A stretch of DNA of 15,613 bases, taken from Clostridia bacterium. Lineage in GTDB: Bacteria > Bacillota_A > Clostridia > Oscillospirales > CAG-272. The notes beneath the pieces were generated by a model that saw only the letters and a program-made list of their open reading frames with translations, had not been told where the DNA came from and made no database searches. The position numbers and the translations under genes are program-made. The DNA lies in assembly GCA_017632155.1 (NCBI GenBank), contig JAGBRZ010000114.1:1-15613 (forward strand), written 5' to 3'. Positions 7,196 to 15,568 of this stretch are shown in pieces. Within the stretch, counting starts at the first letter, position 1; every line of letters starts with the position of its first letter.

Positions 7196-7207
7196 TTTGT
7201 TAACAAA
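7196..7207. repeat. 12-bp perfect palindrome overlapping the upstream aro promoter
   Basis: TTTGTTAACAAA is its own reverse complement, starts one base after the lipoprotein stop codon, and overlaps the -35 of the upstream promoter copy. It could be an operator, but nothing else supports that. Confidence 0.3.
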
Positions 7208-7227
7208 TTGTGACTTTTGTGTATAAC
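7200..7227 (+). promoter_or_regulatory. Upstream, weaker copy of the aro operon promoter
   Basis: TTAACA (7200-7205), 16-bp spacer, TATAAC (7222-7227). The whole segment aligns with the downstream promoter 30 bp away (shared ACAAA, TGTGA and GTGTATAA blocks, one base of length difference), so it looks like a diverged tandem duplicate. Confidence 0.45.
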
Positions 7228-7229
7228 CC

Positions 7230-7258
7230 TTGACAAAACTGTGATTCGGGTGTATAAT
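7230..7258 (+). promoter_or_regulatory. Main sigma-A promoter of the aromatic amino acid operon
   Basis: TTGACA (7230-7235), 17-bp spacer, TATAAT (7253-7258): perfect consensus. It lies 39 bp before the leader peptide start and about 225 bp before pheA, leaving a transcribed leader of roughly 220 nt with a small ORF and a terminator. This is the only strong promoter I see for the eight-gene operon. Confidence 0.85.
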
Positions 7259-7297
7259 CATTGCATAATTATTCAGCGCTTTGAAAGGAGTTCCGAA

Positions 7298-7381
7298 ATG
7301 GCAAATATTCTTATGAATACTCGATTTTATTATTATTTTAGCCATACGGGCTGCCTTGCAAAGTGTGAGTGCGCAGCATAA
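7298..7381 (+). CDS. Phe/Tyr-rich leader peptide of the aromatic operon (27 aa)
   Basis: ATG at 7298 is preceded by GAAAGGAG (7283-7290) at a good distance. The 27-codon ORF contains Phe-Tyr-Tyr-Tyr-Phe at codons 10-14 (7325-7339), then SHTGCLAKCECAA and TAA. It sits downstream of a consensus promoter, upstream of an intrinsic terminator and of an operon whose end products are precursors of Phe and Tyr. That is the architecture of ribosome-mediated attenuation as in enterobacterial pheL: stalling at uncharged Phe/Tyr-tRNA would favour read-through. The Phe/Tyr mix suits control by both amino acids. The Cys-rich tail is unusual; its codons overlap segments complementary to the terminator, so it may be shaped by RNA pairing. 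Expression of the peptide is inferred. Confidence 0.8.
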   Translation: MANILMNTRFYYYFSHTGCLAKCECAA

Positions 7382-7429
7382 CCGATATGGTTTTGTTGCC
7401 GTTCATTAATTTGAATGCATAACAGCCCG
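7347..7429 (+). promoter_or_regulatory. Candidate antiterminator pairings in the aro leader RNA
   Basis: CGGGCTG (7347-7353, inside the leader ORF) is complementary to CAGCCCG (7423-7429), whose end forms the 5' arm of the terminator. The adjacent TGCCTTGCAAAG (7352-7363) can pair, with one bulge and one G-U, with the terminator 3' arm CTTTGCGGGCA (7455-7465). A local hairpin, GCTGC (7350-7354) with GCAGC (7373-7377) extended by GCA/TGC across a bulge, would hide these segments. These structures exclude one another. Which one forms during stalling cannot be settled by eye. Confidence 0.5.
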
Positions 7430-7474
7430 CAATCATTTCGCCACGTCGGCGAATCTTTGCGGGCATATTTTTTT
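7425..7474 (+). terminator. Attenuator: intrinsic terminator in front of pheA
   Basis: GCCCGCAA (7425-7432) pairs with TTGCGGGC (7457-7464), then a small internal loop, then TTCGCC (7437-7442) with GGCGAA (7448-7453) around a five-base loop. The sequence ATATTTTTTT follows directly, giving a U-tract that ends just before the pheA ribosome binding site. Placed between a promoter and the first operon gene, it must be conditional for the operon to be expressed. Confidence 0.85.
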
Positions 7475-7478
7475 GAGG
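7475..7478 (+). promoter_or_regulatory. pheA: Ribosome binding site deciding the pheA start
   Basis: GAGG directly follows the attenuator U-tract. It is only one base from the ATG at 7480 but seven bases from the in-frame ATG at 7486, so the second ATG is the likely start. Confidence 0.7.
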
Positions 7479-7485
7479 TATGAAA

Positions 7486-8589
7486 ATGTCGAACGAACAG
7501 AAAACCCTGCTCGAAGAAGCAAGAGAACAGATAAATCGAGTTGACCGCGAGATGGCGCGTCTTTTCGAGGAAAGAATGAATGCTGTCCGCAAGGTTGCAA
7601 AGTACAAGATGGCGCGCGGACTTCAGGTGCTCGACCCCGAGCGCGAAAAGCAGGTCATTGAGCGCAACTCCGCTCTGATCGAGGACGACGAGCTTCGAAG
7701 CTACTATATCAGCTTCTTGAATGAGAGTATGGCGATCTCGCGCAAGTTCCAGCACCGCCTTATGGAGGGTCAGCGGGTCGCATACAGCGGCGTTCCCGGT
7801 GCATTTGCGCATATCGCCTCGGCGCGCATCTTCCCCGATGCCGTTTGCGTTCCATACGGCAATTTTAAGGAAGCTTACGATTCCGTCCTCGCCTCCGACT
7901 CCGACTGCGCCGTTCTTCCCATTGAAAACAGCATAAACGGCGACGTCACGCAGGTTATGGATATGGCTTATATGGGAAACCTTTATATCAGCGGGGTCTA
8001 TGAACTCCGCGTTGAGCATTGTCTGCTTGCGCTCCCCGGCGCATCACTCGACGATATAAAGACCGTCATCAGCCACGAGCAGGCGCTCGGTCAGTGCTCC
8101 TCCTACCTTTCGGCTCACAAATGGACACAGAGGGGCGCGGTCAACACCGCCGTTGCGGCAAAGGAAGCGGCAGAGGCGGGCGACAAGACGGTTGCCGTCA
8201 TTGCAAGCGAGGAAACCGCAGAGCTTTACGGTCTGCGCGTGCTTGAGCGAAAGATCAATGAAGGCACCAACAACGTCACAAGATTCGCGGTTTTCACCCG
8301 CGAGCCGATCATACCCACACCCGCAAACAACCGATTCATTATGTTCTTCACCGTCAAAAACGAGGCGGGAAGCCTGATGCACGCCGTTGAGGCATTCGGC
8401 AAGAACGGCTTCAATCTCCGCGCCCTCAAGAGCCGTCCCACAAAGGAAACCAACTGGGAATACTACTTCTATGTTGAGGGCGAGGGCACCATCGCGGACA
8501 AATCGGGCAGAAGAATGCTCGAGGACCTCGAGGAGGTCTGCGGAAAGATCAAAATAATCGCATCGTTTGACAAAGATATTACTCTGTAA
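7486..8589 (+). CDS. pheA: Bifunctional chorismate mutase / prephenate dehydratase (P-protein)
   Basis: Converts chorismate to prephenate and then to phenylpyruvate, the Phe branch; cytoplasmic. The 367-residue protein has an AroQ-type mutase at about 5-92 with the expected active-site set: Arg13, Arg30, Lys41, Asp50, Arg53, Glu54, Ser85, Gln89. The dehydratase domain (about 97-272) carries AYSGVPGAFAH, LPIENSINGDV and the catalytic NVTRF (Thr265-Arg266-Phe267). An ACT domain (about 284-365) with GSLMHAV and ALKSRP, matching the GALV and ESRP Phe-binding motifs, predicts feedback inhibition by Phe. Length fits the family. The start at 7486 rather than 7480 is set by GAGG spacing. It is the first gene after the attenuator, so synthesis is probably controlled at both transcription and enzyme level. 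Its stop overlaps the aroB ribosome binding site. Confidence 0.95.
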   Translation: MSNEQKTLLEEAREQINRVDREMARLFEERMNAVRKVAKYKMARGLQVLDPEREKQVIERNSALIEDDELRSYYISFLNESMAISRKFQHRLMEGQRVAYSGVPGAFAHIASARIFPDAVCVPYGNFKEAYDSVLASDSDCAVLPIENSINGDVTQVMDMAYMGNLYISGVYELRVEHCLLALPGASLDDIKTVISHEQALGQCSSYLSAHKWTQRGAVNTAVAAKEAAEAGDKTVAVIASEETAELYGLRVLERKINEGTNNVTRFAVFTREPIIPTPANNRFIMFFTVKNEAGSLMHAVEAFGKNGFNLRALKSRPTKETNWEYYFYVEGEGTIADKSGRRMLEDLEEVCGKIKIIASFDKDITL

Positions 8590-8599
8590 GGAGAAAAAT

Positions 8600-9622
8600 A
8601 TGATCATCCCCGTAAAGCTCGGCGAAGCGAGCTACGATATAGAGATCAGCCGAGGCGCGATCGACCTCGCGGCTGACAAAATAATGAAAAAGGACCGCAA
8701 GGTCTGTGTCGTCACCGACAGCGGTGTTCCGACGGAATATGCAAAAAAGCTTCTCACCTCTCTTGGCGCGGGCGCGATACTGCACGTCATCCCCGCAGGT
8801 GAGGCAAACAAGAATTTCGACACTCTGCAAAGCGTTCTGCGCACTATGCTTGAGGCGGGATTTACCCGAAGCGATGCCGTTGTCGCACTCGGCGGCGGCG
8901 TTGTCGGCGATCTTGCGGGCTTCGCGGCGGCGACTTATATGAGAGGAATCGATTTTTACAATATTCCGACAACCCTTCTCTCGCAGGTTGATTCCTCTGT
9001 CGGCGGCAAAACGGCTGTCGATCTCGACGGCTACAAGAATATGATCGGCGCTTTTTGGCAACCGAGGGCGGTCTTCATCGACCCCGATCTGCTCACCTCT
9101 CTTCCCTCCCGTCAGATCTCGAACGGTCTTTGCGAGGCGCTGAAAATGGGCGCAACATCCGATCCCGAGCTTTTTGAGCTCTTTGAGAAAAATGATGTTA
9201 TTTCAAATCCCGATTTGATCGAAGAAATTATCATAAAAGCAATCACCGCAAAGCGTGACGTTGTTGAGATAGACGAGCGTGAGGGCGGGCTGCGTAAAGT
9301 TCTCAACTTCGGGCACACACTCGGGCACGCCATTGAAAGCTCTTGCGGGCTCTCTCTTCTGCACGGTGAATGCGTCGCACTCGGAATTCCCCCGATGTGC
9401 GAAGGTAAGGTAAAAGAAAGACTTAAAAAAGCACTTTCGAACATCGGTCTTGACACCGAAGCGGCAAAATATATTACCGATAAAAATTCTATTCTCACGG
9501 CGCTCGCGCATGATAAAAAAAGTGCATCGGGCGGCGCAGTAAACGCAGTCATTCTCAAAGATATCGGGAACTTTGAATTTGTAAAGCTCACACCCAAAGA
9601 ACTTATTGAAAGATTGGATTAA
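8600..9622 (+). CDS. aroB: 3-dehydroquinate synthase
   Basis: Second shikimate step: DAHP to 3-dehydroquinate, NAD- and metal-dependent, cytoplasmic. The 340-residue protein shows ALGGGVVGDLAGFAAATYMRG (NAD-binding Gly-rich loop, about 96-116), PTTLLSQVDSSVGGKTAVD (123-141), NGLCEALKMG, FGHTLGHAIE and LHGECVALG. The metal ligands are Glu179, His239 and His255. Cys replaces the usual Ala in HGEAVA. It is at the short end of family length. The ATG at 8600 was chosen because AAGGAG (8588-8593) lies six bases upstream and overlaps the pheA stop; in-frame extension upstream would add 11 residues from inside pheA. It is the second gene of the operon, and aroC starts 3 bases after its stop. Confidence 0.95.
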   Translation: MIIPVKLGEASYDIEISRGAIDLAADKIMKKDRKVCVVTDSGVPTEYAKKLLTSLGAGAILHVIPAGEANKNFDTLQSVLRTMLEAGFTRSDAVVALGGGVVGDLAGFAAATYMRGIDFYNIPTTLLSQVDSSVGGKTAVDLDGYKNMIGAFWQPRAVFIDPDLLTSLPSRQISNGLCEALKMGATSDPELFELFEKNDVISNPDLIEEIIIKAITAKRDVVEIDEREGGLRKVLNFGHTLGHAIESSCGLSLLHGECVALGIPPMCEGKVKERLKKALSNIGLDTEAAKYITDKNSILTALAHDKKSASGGAVNAVILKDIGNFEFVKLTPKELIERLD

Positions 9623-9625
9623 AAA

Positions 9626-10711
9626 ATGAAAAATTCATTCGGAAACGCAATAAATATCTCGCTTTTCGGCGAAAGCCACGGCGCGGGAGTCGGTGTTCTC
9701 ATCGACGGCATCGCCCCCGGCATCAAGGTCGACGAGGATTTCATAGCGCATCAGCTTACCCTGCGCCGCCCTTCGGGCAAGATCTCAACCGCACGCCGCG
9801 AGACCGACGAATACATCATTCAAAGCGGAGTTTTGGGCGGATACACCACGGGCGCGCCGCTTTGCATTTTCATTCCCAACACCGACACGCGAAGCCGCGA
9901 CTACACCCCCGAGCTTCCCCGCCCCTCCCACGCGGATTTCACCGCGCACGAGAAATACCACGGATTTGAAGACTTTCGTGGCGGCGGACATTTTTCGGGC
10001 AGACTGACAGCCGCGCTCGTCGCGGCGGGAGCAATAGTCATTCCCGCTCTGCGCGAAAAGGGCATCTACATCGGCACTTGCATCAGTCAGATCGGTCAGA
10101 TAGGAATTTCGGAGGTCCCGACAGACCGCGAGGGTCTGCTTGCGATTGCCGAAAGCGATTACGGTCTTACCGACGATTACGCCGCCTCAATGATGAAGGA
10201 CACGATAGAGCTTGCCGCAAAAGATGGTGACAGCGTCGGCGGAGTTCTTGAAACCGCAATCATCGGTCTTCCCGCGGGACTCGGGGAGCCCTGGTTCGAC
10301 GGCGTTGAATCACAGATCGCGCGCGCCGTTTTCGGCATTCCCGCAGTTAAATCGGTTGCATTCGGCGCAAAGGATATTGAAACAATGCGCGGCAGCCGCG
10401 CAAACGACGCCTTCACCGTGAAGAACGGCGAAATTGTCACCGCAACCAACAATTCGGGCGGAATTCAGGGCGGAATCACAAACGGTATGCCCATCATCTT
10501 CCGCACCGCGATCAAGCCCACTCCCTCGATCTCGCAGAATCAGCTGACGGTAAATATGCAAACTCGCGATGAGACCGTGCTGAGTGTCAAGGGCAGACAC
10601 GATCCCTGCATCGTTCCGCGCGCGAGAATAGTCCTCGACAGCGTCGCCGCCTTGGTCGTTGCAGATATGCTCACCGTCCGCTACGGCTCGGACGCTCTCA
10701 CGTCAAAATGA
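9626..10711 (+). CDS. aroC: Chorismate synthase
   Basis: Last common step: EPSP to chorismate, requiring reduced FMN. The 361-residue protein has the family signatures in order: FGESHGAGVG (His18), RRPSGKISTARRETD, NTDTRSRDY, RPSHADFT with KY, FRGGGHFSGRLTAALVAAGA, GLPAGLGEPWFDGVE, NNSGGIQGGITNGMP and the C-terminal RHDPCIVPRA. Length is normal. The ATG at 9626 follows the aroB stop by 3 bases without a good Shine-Dalgarno, so translation is probably coupled. The 3' end overlaps aroEK in an ATGA junction. No FMN reductase domain is attached, so reduced FMN must come from elsewhere in the cell. Confidence 0.97.
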   Translation: MKNSFGNAINISLFGESHGAGVGVLIDGIAPGIKVDEDFIAHQLTLRRPSGKISTARRETDEYIIQSGVLGGYTTGAPLCIFIPNTDTRSRDYTPELPRPSHADFTAHEKYHGFEDFRGGGHFSGRLTAALVAAGAIVIPALREKGIYIGTCISQIGQIGISEVPTDREGLLAIAESDYGLTDDYAASMMKDTIELAAKDGDSVGGVLETAIIGLPAGLGEPWFDGVESQIARAVFGIPAVKSVAFGAKDIETMRGSRANDAFTVKNGEIVTATNNSGGIQGGITNGMPIIFRTAIKPTPSISQNQLTVNMQTRDETVLSVKGRHDPCIVPRARIVLDSVAALVVADMLTVRYGSDALTSK

Positions 10712-11961
10712 AATACGGACTTATAGGCGAAAAGCTTTCGCACAGCTTTTCAAAAGAAATACACGAATCCCTCGCGGACTATACCTACGAAATACGCGAG
10801 CTGACGCCCGACGAGGTCGCTCCCTTCCTTGAAGCGCGCAAGTTCGAGGGCATCAACGTGACGATTCCTTACAAGGAAAAAGTCATTCCCCATCTTGATT
10901 CTGTCAGCGATGCCGCAAAAAAGATCGGCGCGGTCAACACGATCAAGAAGCTCGATGGCAAGCTGATCGGTGACAACACGGATTTTTACGGTATGCGCGA
11001 GATGATCCTCCGCGCGGGCATTGAGATCGGCGGCAAAAAGGCTCTCATTCTCGGCACGGGCGGAACCTCGAAGACCGCAAAAGCGGTGCTCTCCGACCTT
11101 GGCGCAAAAGAGCTTATCACGGTTTCGCGCCAAGCAAGTGAAAATACAGTAACCTACGAAACCGCGATCGCGCTTCATTCGGATGCCGAGATAATCGTCA
11201 ACACCACACCTCTTGGAATGTATCCGAAAACCGAAGGAGTGCCGATTGATATCGCGCATTTTCCGAACCTCTCGGGCGTGATCGACGCGATATACAATCC
11301 TTTGCGAACGAATCTCATCCTTGAAGCCGAGGGGCGGGGAATTCCCGCAGTTGGCGGACTTATGATGCTGATCCTGCAAGCGGCAAAGGCATCTGAAATT
11401 TTCCTTGGTAAAAAAATTGGTGACAAAGAAGTTGAAGCGGTTATCAAAAACATCTTTAAATCGAAAGAAAATATAGTCCTCATCGGTATGCCAGGAAGCG
11501 GAAAATCCACCCTCGGCAAGCTGATCGCGGAGATGACGGACAGAGCCTTCATCGACACCGACACAGTAATTGAAGAAATAACGGGCAAGCATCCCGCCGA
11601 GATCATCCGCGAATCGGGTGAAAACGCTTTCCGCGACATCGAAACGCAAGCTGTGCGCGAGGTATCAAAGAGGAGCGGAATCGTGATCGCCACGGGCGGT
11701 GGAATCGTTAAAAGATGGGGAAACATTCCTCTTCTCCGCCAAAACGGCAAGATACTTTATATTGATTGCTCCACGGACGAGCTTCCCGTCACCCCCGACA
11801 GACCGCTTTCATCAAGCCGCGAGGTTATCGAAGAACTACACCGCACCCGCCATCCGCTTTATACCGTGGCGGCAGATGCAGTCATCGCAATATCACATAA
11901 TAACGAACTCAAAAACAACGCAAATGAAGTTTTAAAAATCTTTTCGGAGATGATAATATGA
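10708..11961 (+). CDS. aroEK: Fused shikimate dehydrogenase - shikimate kinase
   Basis: One 417-residue protein for steps four and five. The dehydrogenase part (1 to about 250) shows KLSHSFSKEIH (shikimate binding), NVTIPYK with catalytic Lys56, IGAVNTI, DNTDFYG with Asp92, NADP loop LGTGGTSKTA (115-124), NTTPLGMYP and a C-terminal GLMMLILQAA. A short KNIFKSKEN linker leads to the kinase (about 254-417): Walker A GMPGSGKST (260-268), shikimate-binding FIDTDTVIEE (Asp283, Asp285), ENAFRDIE, ATGGGIV, lid TPDRPLSS (Arg365) and RHPLYTVAAD. Reading through the join is continuous, so this is a true fusion. The start overlaps the aroC stop by 4 bases with no clear ribosome binding site, pointing to coupling. 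The 3' end encodes the GGAGA used by aroQ. Confidence 0.95.
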   Translation: MKYGLIGEKLSHSFSKEIHESLADYTYEIRELTPDEVAPFLEARKFEGINVTIPYKEKVIPHLDSVSDAAKKIGAVNTIKKLDGKLIGDNTDFYGMREMILRAGIEIGGKKALILGTGGTSKTAKAVLSDLGAKELITVSRQASENTVTYETAIALHSDAEIIVNTTPLGMYPKTEGVPIDIAHFPNLSGVIDAIYNPLRTNLILEAEGRGIPAVGGLMMLILQAAKASEIFLGKKIGDKEVEAVIKNIFKSKENIVLIGMPGSGKSTLGKLIAEMTDRAFIDTDTVIEEITGKHPAEIIRESGENAFRDIETQAVREVSKRSGIVIATGGGIVKRWGNIPLLRQNGKILYIDCSTDELPVTPDRPLSSSREVIEELHRTRHPLYTVAADAVIAISHNNELKNNANEVLKIFSEMII

Positions 11962-12410
11962 AAATTCTTGTTCTCAACGGACCAAATATTAATATGCTCG
12001 GCATCCGCGAGCCCTCGATCTACGGCAAAGAAAACTACGCCTCTCTGCTTGCGAAGATACAAAACTATGCCGCAGTGCGTGGGGTCGATCTGAAAGTTCT
12101 CCAAAGCAACCACGAGGGCGTTCTTGTTGACGCCATTCAGGAGGCTTATATGAAATTCGACGGAATCGTCATCAACCCCGCGGCATATACGCACACATCG
12201 GTGGCTCTCCTTGATGCTCTCAAAGCTGTCGGCATCCCAACCGTTGAGGTTCACATCTCGGATGTGTCGAAGCGCGAGGCTTTCAGACAGATCAGCTACG
12301 TCCGCGAGGCTTGCATCGCAACGATCTCGGGTCACGGCACAGACGGCTATCTTGAAGCAATCGATTTGCTGATCGAGCATAAAAAAGCAAAGAAAAATGA
12401 AAAAATTTAA
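11958..12410 (+). CDS. aroQ: Type II 3-dehydroquinate dehydratase
   Basis: Third shikimate step, 3-dehydroquinate to 3-dehydroshikimate, by the dodecameric type II enzyme. The 150-residue sequence has LNGPNINMLGIREPSIYG with catalytic Tyr22 and the preceding flexible-loop Arg17, then QSNHEG, VINPAAYTHTSVAL, VEVHISDVSKRE (catalytic His) and ISGHGTDGYLEA. Size is typical. The ATG overlaps the aroEK stop (ATGA), with GGAGA at 11946-11950 seven bases upstream. The Lys-rich tail HKKAKKNEKI overlaps the start of aroA by 14 bases. Type II rather than type I (AroD) is what this operon uses, and no AroD copy is in the window. Confidence 0.96.
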   Translation: MKILVLNGPNINMLGIREPSIYGKENYASLLAKIQNYAAVRGVDLKVLQSNHEGVLVDAIQEAYMKFDGIVINPAAYTHTSVALLDALKAVGIPTVEVHISDVSKREAFRQISYVREACIATISGHGTDGYLEAIDLLIEHKKAKKNEKI

Positions 12411-13635
12411 CGTAAAGATTGCCCCGTCGCGCCTTTCGGGATGTGTTACGGCACCGCCCTCGAAAAGCATCTCGCACCGCGCACTCATCTGCGCCGCGCT
12501 GGCAGACGGCGAGAGCGTGATCTCGAATCTCGCATTTTCGCAGGACATCCTTGCGACTGTCGACGTTTTGCGAGCTATCGGAGCAAAAATTAAGAAGATC
12601 GACGATTCGACGCTCAATGTCCTTGGAATCGACGGAAAACCCAAATCTCTTTCCGTCCTTGAATGCCGAGAATCGGGAAGCACGCTTCGATTTATGATTC
12701 CGATCTGCCTGCTTTCTCCCGATGAATTCAAGCTTTCGGGAAGCAAAAAGCTTCTCTCACGCCCTCTCAGCGTATATTCGGATATTTTCAAAGTTCGATA
12801 TTGCCGTCCCCACGGCAATACTCTTACACTTTTGGAGGGGGAACCAATCAAATCGGGCGAATACCGCCTTCCCGGCAACGTCAGCAGCCAGTTCATCACG
12901 GGTCTGCTATTTGCCCTTCCGCTCTGCAGAGGCGAGAGCAAGATCATCGTTGAAGGCGATTTCGAAAGCGCGTCCTACATCGATCTGACGCTTGATTCGC
13001 TCCAAAAATTCGGCATAAAAGTTACTCGGGAAAATAATATTTTCTATATAAACGGCAACCAAAAATACACCCCCGCAAACGTAAATATCGAGGGGGATGC
13101 CTCGAATGCCGCGTTCTTTGAGGCGCTGAATCTCATTGACTGCAAGGTTACCGTTGCGGGTCTTAACCCAAGCAGTTTGCAGGGAGATATGGTCTTTAAC
13201 AAGCATTTCGAGGCACTTAAAGCCCATTCATCCGAGCAAATTGATCTTTCGAATTGCCCCGATCTTGCGCCGATTCTCTTCTCTGCCGCGGCTCTTTTGG
13301 GCGGAGGAAGCTTCACCCACACAGACCGTCTTCGCCTCAAAGAGAGCGACCGCATTTCTGCAATGAAGGAAGAGCTTGAAAAGTTCGGTGCACGCATTGA
13401 GGTCATCGATGGGCAAAACGGCGGAACGGTCAACGTGCTGCCCGCCGAGCTTCACGCCCCGAAGGTTCCCCTCTCCTCACACAACGACCACCGCATTGCA
13501 ATGAGCCTTTCCGTCCTCGCCCTCCGCTTCGGCGGCGAGATTGAGGGTGCGGAGGCAGTAAGAAAAAGTATGCCCGATTTCTTCGAAAATCTCGAAGCCC
13601 TCGGCGCACACATCACAAAAACCGAAACAATATGA
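12397..13635 (+). CDS. aroA: 3-phosphoshikimate 1-carboxyvinyltransferase (EPSP synthase)
   Basis: Sixth shikimate step: shikimate-3-phosphate plus PEP to EPSP. The 412-residue protein carries PPSKSISHRALI (Lys23), CRESGSTLRFM (PEP-binding loop, Gly94, Arg98), GNVSSQFITGLL (shikimate-3-phosphate site), EGDASNAAFF, the catalytic Asp289 in CPDLAPILFSAAA, RLKESDRISAM (Glu316), NDHRIAMSLSVLALRF and VRKSMPDFF. Length is a little below the usual 420-430. The start is 14 bases inside aroQ, with only a weak purine run ahead of it, so it probably depends on ribosomes terminating on aroQ. It ends in a 4-base ATGA overlap with tyrA. Confidence 0.96.
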   Translation: MKKFNVKIAPSRLSGCVTAPPSKSISHRALICAALADGESVISNLAFSQDILATVDVLRAIGAKIKKIDDSTLNVLGIDGKPKSLSVLECRESGSTLRFMIPICLLSPDEFKLSGSKKLLSRPLSVYSDIFKVRYCRPHGNTLTLLEGEPIKSGEYRLPGNVSSQFITGLLFALPLCRGESKIIVEGDFESASYIDLTLDSLQKFGIKVTRENNIFYINGNQKYTPANVNIEGDASNAAFFEALNLIDCKVTVAGLNPSSLQGDMVFNKHFEALKAHSSEQIDLSNCPDLAPILFSAAALLGGGSFTHTDRLRLKESDRISAMKEELEKFGARIEVIDGQNGGTVNVLPAELHAPKVPLSSHNDHRIAMSLSVLALRFGGEIEGAEAVRKSMPDFFENLEALGAHITKTETI

Positions 13636-14516
13636 AACTTACAAAAGATACAAAAATACTGATCGTCGGCCTTGGACTTCTCGGCGGCTCATATGCCATG
13701 GCGCTGACAAAGAAAGGCTACACGGTCAAAGCACTCACCCGCTCGCAATCGAGCATCGACTATGCGCTTGAAGCAGGCATTATTGCCGAGGGCAAAACGG
13801 GCGTTGATGCCGACATGATCGCAGAGGCAGACCTGATCGTCTTTTCCGTCTACCCGCGAGTGCTGATCGAGTGGATGGAGCAAAACCGTAACCTTATCAA
13901 ACCCGGCACGGTGCTCACCGACGTCACGGGCGTCAAGGGCTACACCGTCCACCGCATCCAATCGATGATTCCCGAAGGCGCAGAATTCATTTCTGCGCAC
14001 CCGATGGCGGGCCGCGAATGCCTCGGCGTGCAGAACGCAACCGACGAAATTTTCAAAAAAGCAAACTACCTTGTCGTTCCCACAGAAAAGAACACCGAGG
14101 AAGCCTGCATCCTTTGCGAAGATCTTGGCCGCGAGCTCGGATTTGCGCGTATTTCACGCATTTCCGTCGACAAGCACGACGAAATGATCGCGTTCCTTTC
14201 TCAGCTGACACACGCAATAGCAGTCACGCTGATGTGCTGCAACGACTCGCCCGACCTTGTGGATTACACGGGCGACTCCTTCCGCGATCTTACGCGTATC
14301 GCAAAGATCGATGACGCAATGTGGAACGAGCTCTTCATGTGCAACCGCGACGAGCTTGCAAAGCAGATGGACATATTTTCCGAAACTTTTGAGAAAATGC
14401 GCAAGGCTCTCAAAGAAGGCGACACGACAACAATGCGCCAAATGATGCGTACCTCTACCGAAAGGCGAAAATTATTCGATATTAACCCCCAAACCAACTC
14501 AAAAGGAGATAAATAA
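13632..14516 (+). CDS. tyrA: Prephenate dehydrogenase
   Basis: Oxidises prephenate to 4-hydroxyphenylpyruvate, the Tyr branch. The 294-residue protein has an N-terminal dinucleotide loop IVGLGLLGGS (11-20), SAHPMAGREC with His123, HDEMIAFLSQLTHAIA with His194, and GDSFRDLTRIAKID with Arg218 and Arg222. No ACT domain follows, unlike many Firmicute TyrA proteins, so direct Tyr feedback through ACT is not expected. After the second strand the sequence is ALTRSQSS rather than an acidic residue, which hints at NADP rather than NAD (inference). TDVTGVKG replaces the commoner DVGSVK loop, placing Gly where many relatives have the active-site Ser. It overlaps aroA by 4 bases and no chorismate mutase domain is attached; prephenate comes from PheA. 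The AAGGAG for the next gene is inside its end. Confidence 0.94.
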   Translation: MKLTKDTKILIVGLGLLGGSYAMALTKKGYTVKALTRSQSSIDYALEAGIIAEGKTGVDADMIAEADLIVFSVYPRVLIEWMEQNRNLIKPGTVLTDVTGVKGYTVHRIQSMIPEGAEFISAHPMAGRECLGVQNATDEIFKKANYLVVPTEKNTEEACILCEDLGRELGFARISRISVDKHDEMIAFLSQLTHAIAVTLMCCNDSPDLVDYTGDSFRDLTRIAKIDDAMWNELFMCNRDELAKQMDIFSETFEKMRKALKEGDTTTMRQMMRTSTERRKLFDINPQTNSKGDK

Positions 14517-14518
14517 AA

Positions 14519-15568
14519 ATGAGCCAGATGTTGAATATGACTTTTAAGCACAAGTTGCCCATCCCGATGGACATCAAGGCGCAGTTCCCTATCACCGCAG
14601 AAATGCAAGCGGTCAAGGAAGCACGCGATATTGAGATTGCAAAAGTTTTCAAGGGCGAGAGTGACAAATTCGTCCTCGTCATCGGCCCCTGCTCCGCAGA
14701 TCGCCCCGAGCCCGTGCTTCAGTATATCGAAAAGCTTGCTGATATTCAAAAGAAAGTTGAAGATAAAATAATCATAATTCCCAGAATCTACACCAACAAG
14801 CCGAGAACCACCGGCGACGGATACAAGGGTATGCTCCATCAGCCCAACCCCACAGAGGACGTTGATATGCTCAAGGGCATCATCGCTATTCGTGATCTTC
14901 ACAGCCGCGCTCTCCGCGACTACGGTATGGCTTGCGCCGACGAGATGCTTTACCCCGACAACTACCGTTACCTCAACGATCTGCTTGCATACACCGCTGT
15001 CGGCGCGCGTTCGGTTGAAAACCAGAAGCACCGCCTGACCGCAAGCGGAATTGACGTTCCCGTTGGTATGAAAAACCCCACAAGCGGCGATATTTCTATT
15101 ATGATGAACTCGATCACCGCCGCACAACACAGCCACACCTTCATTTACCGCGGTTGGGAGGTTCAGAGCCACGGCAATCCCCTCGCACACGCCATCCTTC
15201 GCGGATACGTTGACGGCTCGGGCAAATCCTACCCCAACTACCACTACGAGGATCTGCGCGACCTTTGCGAAACATATGCAAAGACCAACCTCGCCAATCC
15301 CGCCGTCATCGTTGACACCAACCACGCAAACTCGGGCAAAAAGTGGGCGGAACAGCCCAGGATCGCCAAGGACATCATCCACTCCTGCCGCAAGAGCGAA
15401 GACATCAAGAAGCTCGTCAAGGGCCTTATGATCGAAAGCTACCTCATCGACGGCGCACAGAAGGTCACCGACGAGGCAAGCTATGTCTGCGGTCAGTCCA
15501 TCACCGACCCCTGCCTTGGTTGGGAGAAAACCGAAAAGTTGATTCTCGAACTTGCCGAGGAGCTTTAA
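14519..15568 (+). CDS. 3-deoxy-7-phosphoheptulonate (DAHP) synthase, type I alpha
   Basis: First committed step: PEP plus erythrose-4-phosphate to DAHP. The 349-residue protein belongs to the AroF/G/H (type I alpha) class: VIGPCSA, KPRTTGDGYKG, AVGARSVENQKHR, GIDVPVGMKN, YRGWEVQSHGNP, DTNHANSGK, MIESYLIDGAQ and GQSITDPCLGW. The metal ligands are Cys58, His269, Glu306 and Asp330. The N-terminal extension present in allosterically regulated AroG-type enzymes is kept, so feedback inhibition is likely, but the effector cannot be read from sequence. AAGGAG (14503-14508) lies ten bases before the ATG, and tyrA ends 2 bases ahead. It is the last gene of the operon. Naming it aroF, aroG or aroH would overstate the evidence, so no symbol is given. 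Confidence 0.95.
   Translation: MSQMLNMTFKHKLPIPMDIKAQFPITAEMQAVKEARDIEIAKVFKGESDKFVLVIGPCSADRPEPVLQYIEKLADIQKKVEDKIIIIPRIYTNKPRTTGDGYKGMLHQPNPTEDVDMLKGIIAIRDLHSRALRDYGMACADEMLYPDNYRYLNDLLAYTAVGARSVENQKHRLTASGIDVPVGMKNPTSGDISIMMNSITAAQHSHTFIYRGWEVQSHGNPLAHAILRGYVDGSGKSYPNYHYEDLRDLCETYAKTNLANPAVIVDTNHANSGKKWAEQPRIAKDIIHSCRKSEDIKKLVKGLMIESYLIDGAQKVTDEASYVCGQSITDPCLGWEKTEKLILELAEEL

Follow-up and report, generated by a model that had tools for sequence, protein, structure and literature searches.

In the proteobacterial pheA and pheST attenuators, a short Phe-rich leader ORF stands ahead of mutually exclusive antiterminator and terminator structures, with a Phe gene downstream. In TRAP systems, premature termination is set by aromatic amino acid supply. 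Phe attenuators and pheST are named in the available sections of PMC1262725 and PMC3766115, the latter presenting four Rfam amino-acid leader families that are largely gammaproteobacterial. For the Bacillota, the available portions of PMC1262725, PMC2965389, PMC9413887 and PMC5794164 present T-boxes as the standard device and assign leader peptides to Proteobacteria and Actinobacteria, apart from a small number of His and Leu examples in Bacillota; tyrosine genes are among those described as controlled by T-boxes (PMC1262725). The Bacillota cases covered there include the Leu leader peptide of S. aureus ilv-leu (PMC5794164) and His leaders in several groups (PMC9413887, PMC2965389), to which a leader-peptide attenuator of hisZ in C. 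difficile can be added (PMC4833913). Attenuation has also been proposed for uORFC-13-1, a motif upstream of aroF in Acholeplasma with 24 representatives, environmental sequences included (PMC8632094). Apart from this Acholeplasma motif, searches of an open-access library brought up no Phe/Tyr leader in Bacillota; subscription papers could hold some.

The DNA analysed here is a 15,613-nt stretch of a Clostridia contig (the window), in which an earlier note, made from the letters alone, had proposed leader-peptide attenuation of pheA. All elements of such a device, its conservation in close relatives, its exclusive pairings and the co-variation of its arms can be read in the sequences; together with the recurrence of the same design in many sampled Clostridia and the lack of a riboswitch or T-box match, they support the proposal well, and the leader is very probably a classical ribosome-mediated transcription attenuator.

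Leader, terminator and operon at the pheA locus

The ORF with its own Shine-Dalgarno sequence and run of Phe and Tyr codons, described in the earlier note, is read directly from the window, as are the consensus promoter and the terminator after the ORF (Table 1). The promoter lies 39 nt upstream of the ATG, and its TTGACA and TATAAT are also present in four related loci, L001, L002, L003 and L005. By eye, a near-repeat of the form AAxTGTGA...GTGTATAA... was seen at about 7205-7232 and 7237-7264, the second copy containing the -10 region of the leader promoter; it can also be read in L001 and partly in L003, and is possibly an operator or a tandem promoter.

Table 1. Features of the leader and the downstream operon in the window
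Feature	Position	Strand	Details
Sigma70-type promoter, TTGACA-17-TATAAT	7230..7258	+	TTGACA 7230-7235, TATAAT 7253-7258; 12/12 matches
Shine-Dalgarno AAAGGAG of leader ORF	7284..7290	+	Read directly; retained in L001-L003
Leader peptide ORF, 27 codons, MANILMNTRFYYYFSHTGCLAKCECAA	7298..7381	+	ATG 7298, stop TAA 7379-7381
Putative regulatory codons Phe-Tyr-Tyr-Tyr-Phe, codons 10-14	7325..7339	+	TTT TAT TAT TAT TTT
Region 2, antiterminator 5' strand, CGGGCTGCCTTGCA	7347..7360	+	Inverted repeat I1
Region 3, antiterminator 3' strand, TGCATAACAGCCCG	7416..7429	+	Inverted repeats I1 and I2
Intrinsic terminator	7425..7474	+	Hairpin 7425-7464, T-run 7468-7474; inverted repeat I2
pheA, first gene of the putatively regulated operon	7480..8589	+	Start 7480 or 7486; chorismate mutase / prephenate dehydratase / ACT-like end
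Rest of operon: aroB, aroC, aroE-aroK fusion, aroQ, aroA, tyrA, AroFGH-type DAHP synthase	8600..15568	+	

The terminator hairpin is built from the arms GCCCGCAA and TTTGCGGGC, with inner TTCGCC/GGCGAA, and is followed by ATATTTTTTT. It was called at -24.1 kcal/mol, 43 nt 3' of the leader stop and directly 5' of the pheA Shine-Dalgarno sequence GAGG (7475-7478), and the segment 7420-7472 folds at -25.6 kcal/mol. A simple terminator scan of the window missed this hairpin; its interrupted stem and the bases that separate stem and T-run are the probable reason. The leader RNA as a whole (7265-7475) folds at -74.6 kcal/mol, with z = -6.2 relative to 200 shuffles. When 7259-7479 was subjected to 5000 dinucleotide shuffles, an ORF with a Shine-Dalgarno sequence and at least five F/Y/W in seven codons arose in 21, and one with five consecutive F/Y in 1. 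The window leader and seven others were searched against NCBIfam, which gave 0 families (short peptides are hard for HMMs), and against Pfam, which gave a single irrelevant weak match (E 0.13) in one of the eight.

The description of the downstream genes as a pheA/tyrA operon names two genes that are indeed there, but understates a set that also holds aroB, aroC, aroE-aroK, aroQ, aroA and a DAHP synthase gene. All eight genes, pheA and seven others, were identified by Pfam, with tyrA and the DAHP synthase additionally matched by NCBIfam; in PheA, CM_2 and PDT exceed their cut-offs and ACT falls under its own. Judging from spacing and strand, the eight would form one transcript.

That a T-box or metabolite riboswitch lies hidden in the leader is hardly credible, even if a T-box is the common expectation for Bacillota amino-acid genes and T-boxes do occur in neighbouring loci. 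In the window no Rfam model matched at its gathering score, hence no amino-acid leader family and no T-box (RF00230), and a search of 7200-7490 up to E = 10 returned just three unrelated sub-threshold matches; a T-box or other riboswitch in the leader was rejected for this lack of an Rfam match. Four T-boxes were found in 50 other loci scanned, three of them preceding ABC-transporter binding proteins and one lying upstream of trpE. The three transporter T-boxes (L172:390-640, L186:1789-2035 and L178:5191-5434) stand before substrate-binding proteins of PF04392, near pheA, and perhaps serve amino acid uptake. Among 59 genomes of the G001 family, trpE (PF04715) was present in 6 and hisG in 52; most members seem to be Trp auxotrophs, not making Trp by the usual route, despite their Phe/Tyr genes. 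Within 1500 nt, Trp-rich leaders were found before trpE at 0 of 6 loci, and His-rich leaders (at least 4 His in 7) before hisG at 0 of 30. Within the limits of these scans, the device appears to be particular to Phe/Tyr genes.

Exclusive pairings and the position of the ribosome

Regions 2 and 3 form an inverted repeat whose second copy overlaps the terminator 5' arm, the GCCCG of region 3 doubling as the base of that arm. From this layout we infer the start site, translation, stalling, termination and response to starvation as follows. Transcription would start near 7265, and the leader ORF would be translated at once. With ample charged tRNA-Phe and tRNA-Tyr, the ribosome would cover region 2 while regions 3 and 4 are being transcribed, the hairpin would form and transcription would stop before pheA. 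With charged tRNA scarce, the ribosome would wait in the FYYYF run, above all at Tyr in the window and probably at Phe too; region 2 would then be free to pair with region 3, the terminator could not close, and the entire Phe/Tyr/shikimate operon would be transcribed.

Folding was modelled on the transcript as it stands before the terminator 3' arm exists, with the ribosome footprint treated as an unpaired block whose edges are assumed. For the window, the probability of region 2:3 pairing was 0.93-0.99 with the A site at Tyr12 or Tyr13, and that of the antiterminator was 0.00 with the A site at codons 15-23. Across five leaders (the window, L001, L002, L003 and L005) and six footprint settings, the antiterminator was possible up to codon 12, 13 or 14 and then lost. 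Without a ribosome, an upstream region 1:2 pairing that includes the leader's own Shine-Dalgarno sequence dominates in the window; this pairing, also present in L001, was not found in L002, L003 or L005, where the antiterminator formed at nearly every pre-run codon and without a ribosome (0.93-0.99). In the window it formed in many settings with the ribosome at codons 1-7 as well. Because the antiterminator also forms at these earlier codons, the position of the F/Y codons would set the last point at which a waiting ribosome leaves region 2 free. The leader stop lies about 20 nt 3' of region 2, and a ribosome at or just before it allowed the antiterminator to return under certain settings (window 0.00-0.41 at the stop itself, L002 and L005 up to 0.98). 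In the full-length equilibrium fold the terminator prevailed at every ribosome position (P 0.97-0.98), so that the switch must depend on timing.

A generic ribosome walk was also run, starting from 65 candidate ORFs, from which six duplicate or chance cases were removed by hand; of the 59 left, one lacked a terminator. Over these 58 leaders the best F/Y position had a mean of 0.65, compared with 0.58 for shuffled leaders, the mean over F/Y positions was 0.59 and that at the stop 0.49, and the best F/Y position exceeded the stop in 40 of 58; these values are uninformative. For the window, L001, L003 and L010, at least, the walk used a wrongly called terminator.

The further claim that the operon senses both Phe and Tyr is plausible in view of the mixed F and Y codons and of a Trp content of 0.6% and 0% in the two leader sets of the survey. 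The window model favours Tyr12 and Tyr13 and never Phe10. An attenuator dominated by Tyr, in which only Tyr starvation opens the operon in the window and the flanking Phe codons evoke little or no response, is doubtful to our minds. The window and L001 do form the antiterminator in most footprint settings with a stall at Tyr12 or Tyr13, never with one at Phe10, and at Phe14 only with short footprints. However, the footprint edges behind this pattern are assumed, a stall at Phe10 also gives the antiterminator in L002, L003 and L005, under some settings at least, and in the other leaders F and Y are intermingled in no fixed order.

Conservation and recurrence of the leader in Clostridia

The best 80 of 359 PheA relatives were taken from genome contigs. 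L001, L002 and L003 (PheA identity 96, 92 and 88%) retain RFYYYFSHTGCLA, and the indels within the leader ORF among these loci and the window are of 3 or 6 nt. At 60% PheA identity, L005 retains RFYYYCHTGYL and the pairing arms. MF..SFYFYYF..DCRFA is the leader motif at six loci with a Lachnospiraceae or Lachnoclostridium label; here region 3 is more adjacent to the terminator stem than overlapping with it, and complementarity was significant in one of the six. When one pheA-type leader was used in a nucleotide search of 395 family genomes, 11 had a match, mostly short. A lack of conservation in close relatives, which the earlier note named as a refutation, was not what was found, since L001, L002, L003 and L005 keep the leader, but conservation does not extend to all: in the genus of G001, where 10 of 13 genomes had a match, three pheA genes (49-50% identity) had no such leader in the stretch fetched, nor was an F/Y leader found upstream at L209 (genome G158), for which the alignment has no counterpart. 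Of PheA, just the chorismate mutase part was found at L209, continuing in frame into AroB (1432-2817), and the PheA search found no prephenate dehydratase in G158, a genome that may be incomplete; Phe synthesis and its attenuator have apparently been lost jointly.

For the family of G001, PF00800 was matched in 135 of 146 genomes, and wide stretches were taken from 80 of them. In a class-wide sample PF00800 was matched in 93 of 118 genomes, and 40 of the 42 even-numbered ones were fetched (G264 and G296 left out); an F/Y leader stood beside an aromatic gene in 14 of the 40, with two more, chance-like, elsewhere. A strict rule, requiring a Shine-Dalgarno ORF with at least five F/Y/W in seven codons, was applied in both sets to genes with at least 150 nt upstream. 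Such leaders precede 41 of 99 aromatic-pathway genes, as against 4 of 250 other genes in the same stretches (Fisher p 2e-21, and 3e-28 for aroF), and one of the 4 control matches is itself leader-like, before DUF554-pheA. As counted from the list, the 41 divide into aroF (29/37), pheA (7/37) and aroB, aroG, tyrA or aminotransferase genes (5/25). Thirty of these 37 pheA genes do not satisfy the rule, and six of these (L141, L181, L185, L194, L198 and L310) show a leader by other searches. A first-look survey of 80 loci had given 49 same-strand and 5 opposite-strand matches; 10 of the 49 were discarded as leaders, being in fact the C-terminal coding stretch of pheA itself (...YYFY.E..G...). At L163:2055-2753 (minus strand), an F/Y-rich leader, MKKTTLENISLVSASETVSNTNAAIDFGVRFFAYSVFYYFFEKKSKGCG, and a terminator stand before a DUF554 gene that has pheA behind it; DUF554 may have a role in aromatic metabolism or transport.

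A search for aroF gave a match in 37 of the 40 genomes, and the 30 best-ranked loci were examined; in the five checked by Pfam, the gene encodes an FXD-type DAHP synthase. A strict-rule leader was present in 20, Oscillibacter valericigenes An860 (L330) being one carrier, with the leader MTSIARTFAYRYFSFTYYFGKAYFGLAESTRV. L315 has four in seven, six loci (L314, L323, L328, L331, L332 and L339) have an F/Y-rich frame for which no start was recognised, and L313 (just 132 nt of contig upstream), L321 and L335 gave no acceptable leader. L331, L332 and L339 come from Lentisphaerae/Verrucomicrobia MAGs, with an aroF product 68% identical to clostridial AroF and, upstream, the F/Y-rich frame MLKKSFAAAYYYFGFAYYFAGR... 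and variants, which suggests transfer of attenuator and gene between phyla, or misbinned contigs.

Two leader sets, 59 aroF-type and 22 pheA-type, rest on grouping by eye, as does the trimming of some starts, with three relatives added later; they omit other leader types (e.g. L007, L131, L163, L166, L178, L185, L194-L196, L198, L201 and L281). Two aroF-type peptides that the Shine-Dalgarno rule did not recover were left out of both the terminator count and the pairing tests; among the other 57, two lacked a terminator call and were left out of the pairing tests. The two sets have an F+Y content of 33% and 32%. A third, automatic set was built without hand grouping: its 62 leaders (41 from the strict rule, 20 from aroF loci, and the window) were reduced to 53 at 60% peptide similarity. 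The other sets contain close relatives, which are not independent of one another. A terminator of -12 kcal/mol or better follows within 130 nt in 77 of 82 hand-collected leaders as compared with 18 of 150 control ORFs, and within 180 nt in all 53 of the automatic set.

Complementarity to the terminator 5' arm was found in the coding part behind the F/Y run and not in the part before it (0.07, 0.71). For the post-run part of the 22 pheA-type leaders the mean Z was -1.53 (Fisher 6e-8, 8 at p<0.05); for that of the 55 aroF-type leaders it was -0.57 (Fisher 2e-4, 9 at p<0.05), a result that is post hoc, the whole post-run region having been adopted after inspection of the sequences, with the swap tests, and chiefly the one on the automatic set, as the check. 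The earlier test, on 36 nt behind the run, had given Fisher 3e-12 for the same 22 pheA-type leaders, 0.60 for the 55 aroF-type and 0.07 for five other pheA leaders. When arms were swapped among the 53 automatic leaders, the cognate residual was -2.17 kcal/mol (p 5e-5), as against -0.47 (p 0.08) with region 2 reversed. The hand-made sets gave p 5e-5 for 25 pheA-type leaders, 1.5e-4 for 16 after dereplication and 1e-4 for 55 aroF-type leaders, with reversed controls at p 0.13 and 0.35. The cognate arm was the single best partner in 4 of 53 automatic leaders (median rank 13) and in 4 of 25 and 1 of 55 in the hand-made sets; being so seldom the best, it shows that the pairing signal belongs to the group and not to each leader.

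Within clades, the residues that follow the run are conserved (SHTGCLA, DCRFA, AMDC/AMEC, GCPSFV), as might be expected if the nascent peptide sensed free Phe or Tyr in a TnaC-like arrest rather than the ribosome sensing uncharged tRNA. We consider such an arrest improbable, since the conserved GC, DC and AMDC are accounted for by codons that spell region 2 (GGGCTGC, GGACTGC, GATGGA), the RNA that pairs with the terminator arm, with no need of an arrest peptide, and leaders of different clades share little beyond their F/Y richness. More improbable still is a plain terminator behind a short ORF that is accidental or encodes a small protein. The leaderless pheA genes of the genus do indicate that the ORF is dispensable in some lineages, but the hairpin sits between a perfect promoter and the pheA Shine-Dalgarno sequence, and the combination of F/Y leader and terminator recurs with dissimilar sequences. 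An accidental ORF with an ordinary terminator was rejected on the strict-rule counts, the single shuffle in 5000, and the terminator and swap results.

Breadth and relation to known systems

The mechanism of ribosome-mediated attenuation is already known; its place and breadth here appear to be new. With some reserve, we lean towards the wider view that entry into the shikimate, Phe and Tyr pathways is controlled across Clostridia, above all in aroF-first operons, predominantly by Phe/Tyr leader-peptide attenuation. On this view it would be old, would have diverged into several leader types and been carried with aroF into Lentisphaerae/Verrucomicrobia, a single codon run reading both branch end products, with Trp left to T-boxes or not made. 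If the leaders work, many gut and rumen Clostridia would use translation-coupled attenuation for Phe and Tyr, a device that works only if ribosome and RNA polymerase are tightly coupled. In Bacillus subtilis, transcription is reported to run ahead of translation. The leaders would also supply an annotation rule for many of the short ORFs that precede aroF and pheA, and are candidate Phe/Tyr-responsive switches.

Compared by description only, uORFC-13-1 resembles the present leader in its possible promoter, RBS, start codon, terminator and DAHP synthase gene; its U-run codes for at least one Phe, and Tyr codons go unmentioned in the available part of that description (PMC8632094). The Leu and His leaders of Bacillota, so far as their available descriptions go, share ribosome-mediated transcription attenuation with it and concern other amino acids and operons, in few lineages each. 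T-boxes and TRAP likewise work by premature termination according to aromatic supply, but there tRNA-RNA binding or a protein does the sensing, whereas here, with no T-box, the codons would do so. Closest in design are the proteobacterial pheA and pheST attenuators, which likewise have a short leader ORF, an exclusive antiterminator and terminator, and a Phe gene downstream; the leader described here differs in having no Rfam match, in its mixed Phe/Tyr run, in its occurrence in Clostridia and in standing before a whole shikimate-Phe-Tyr operon.
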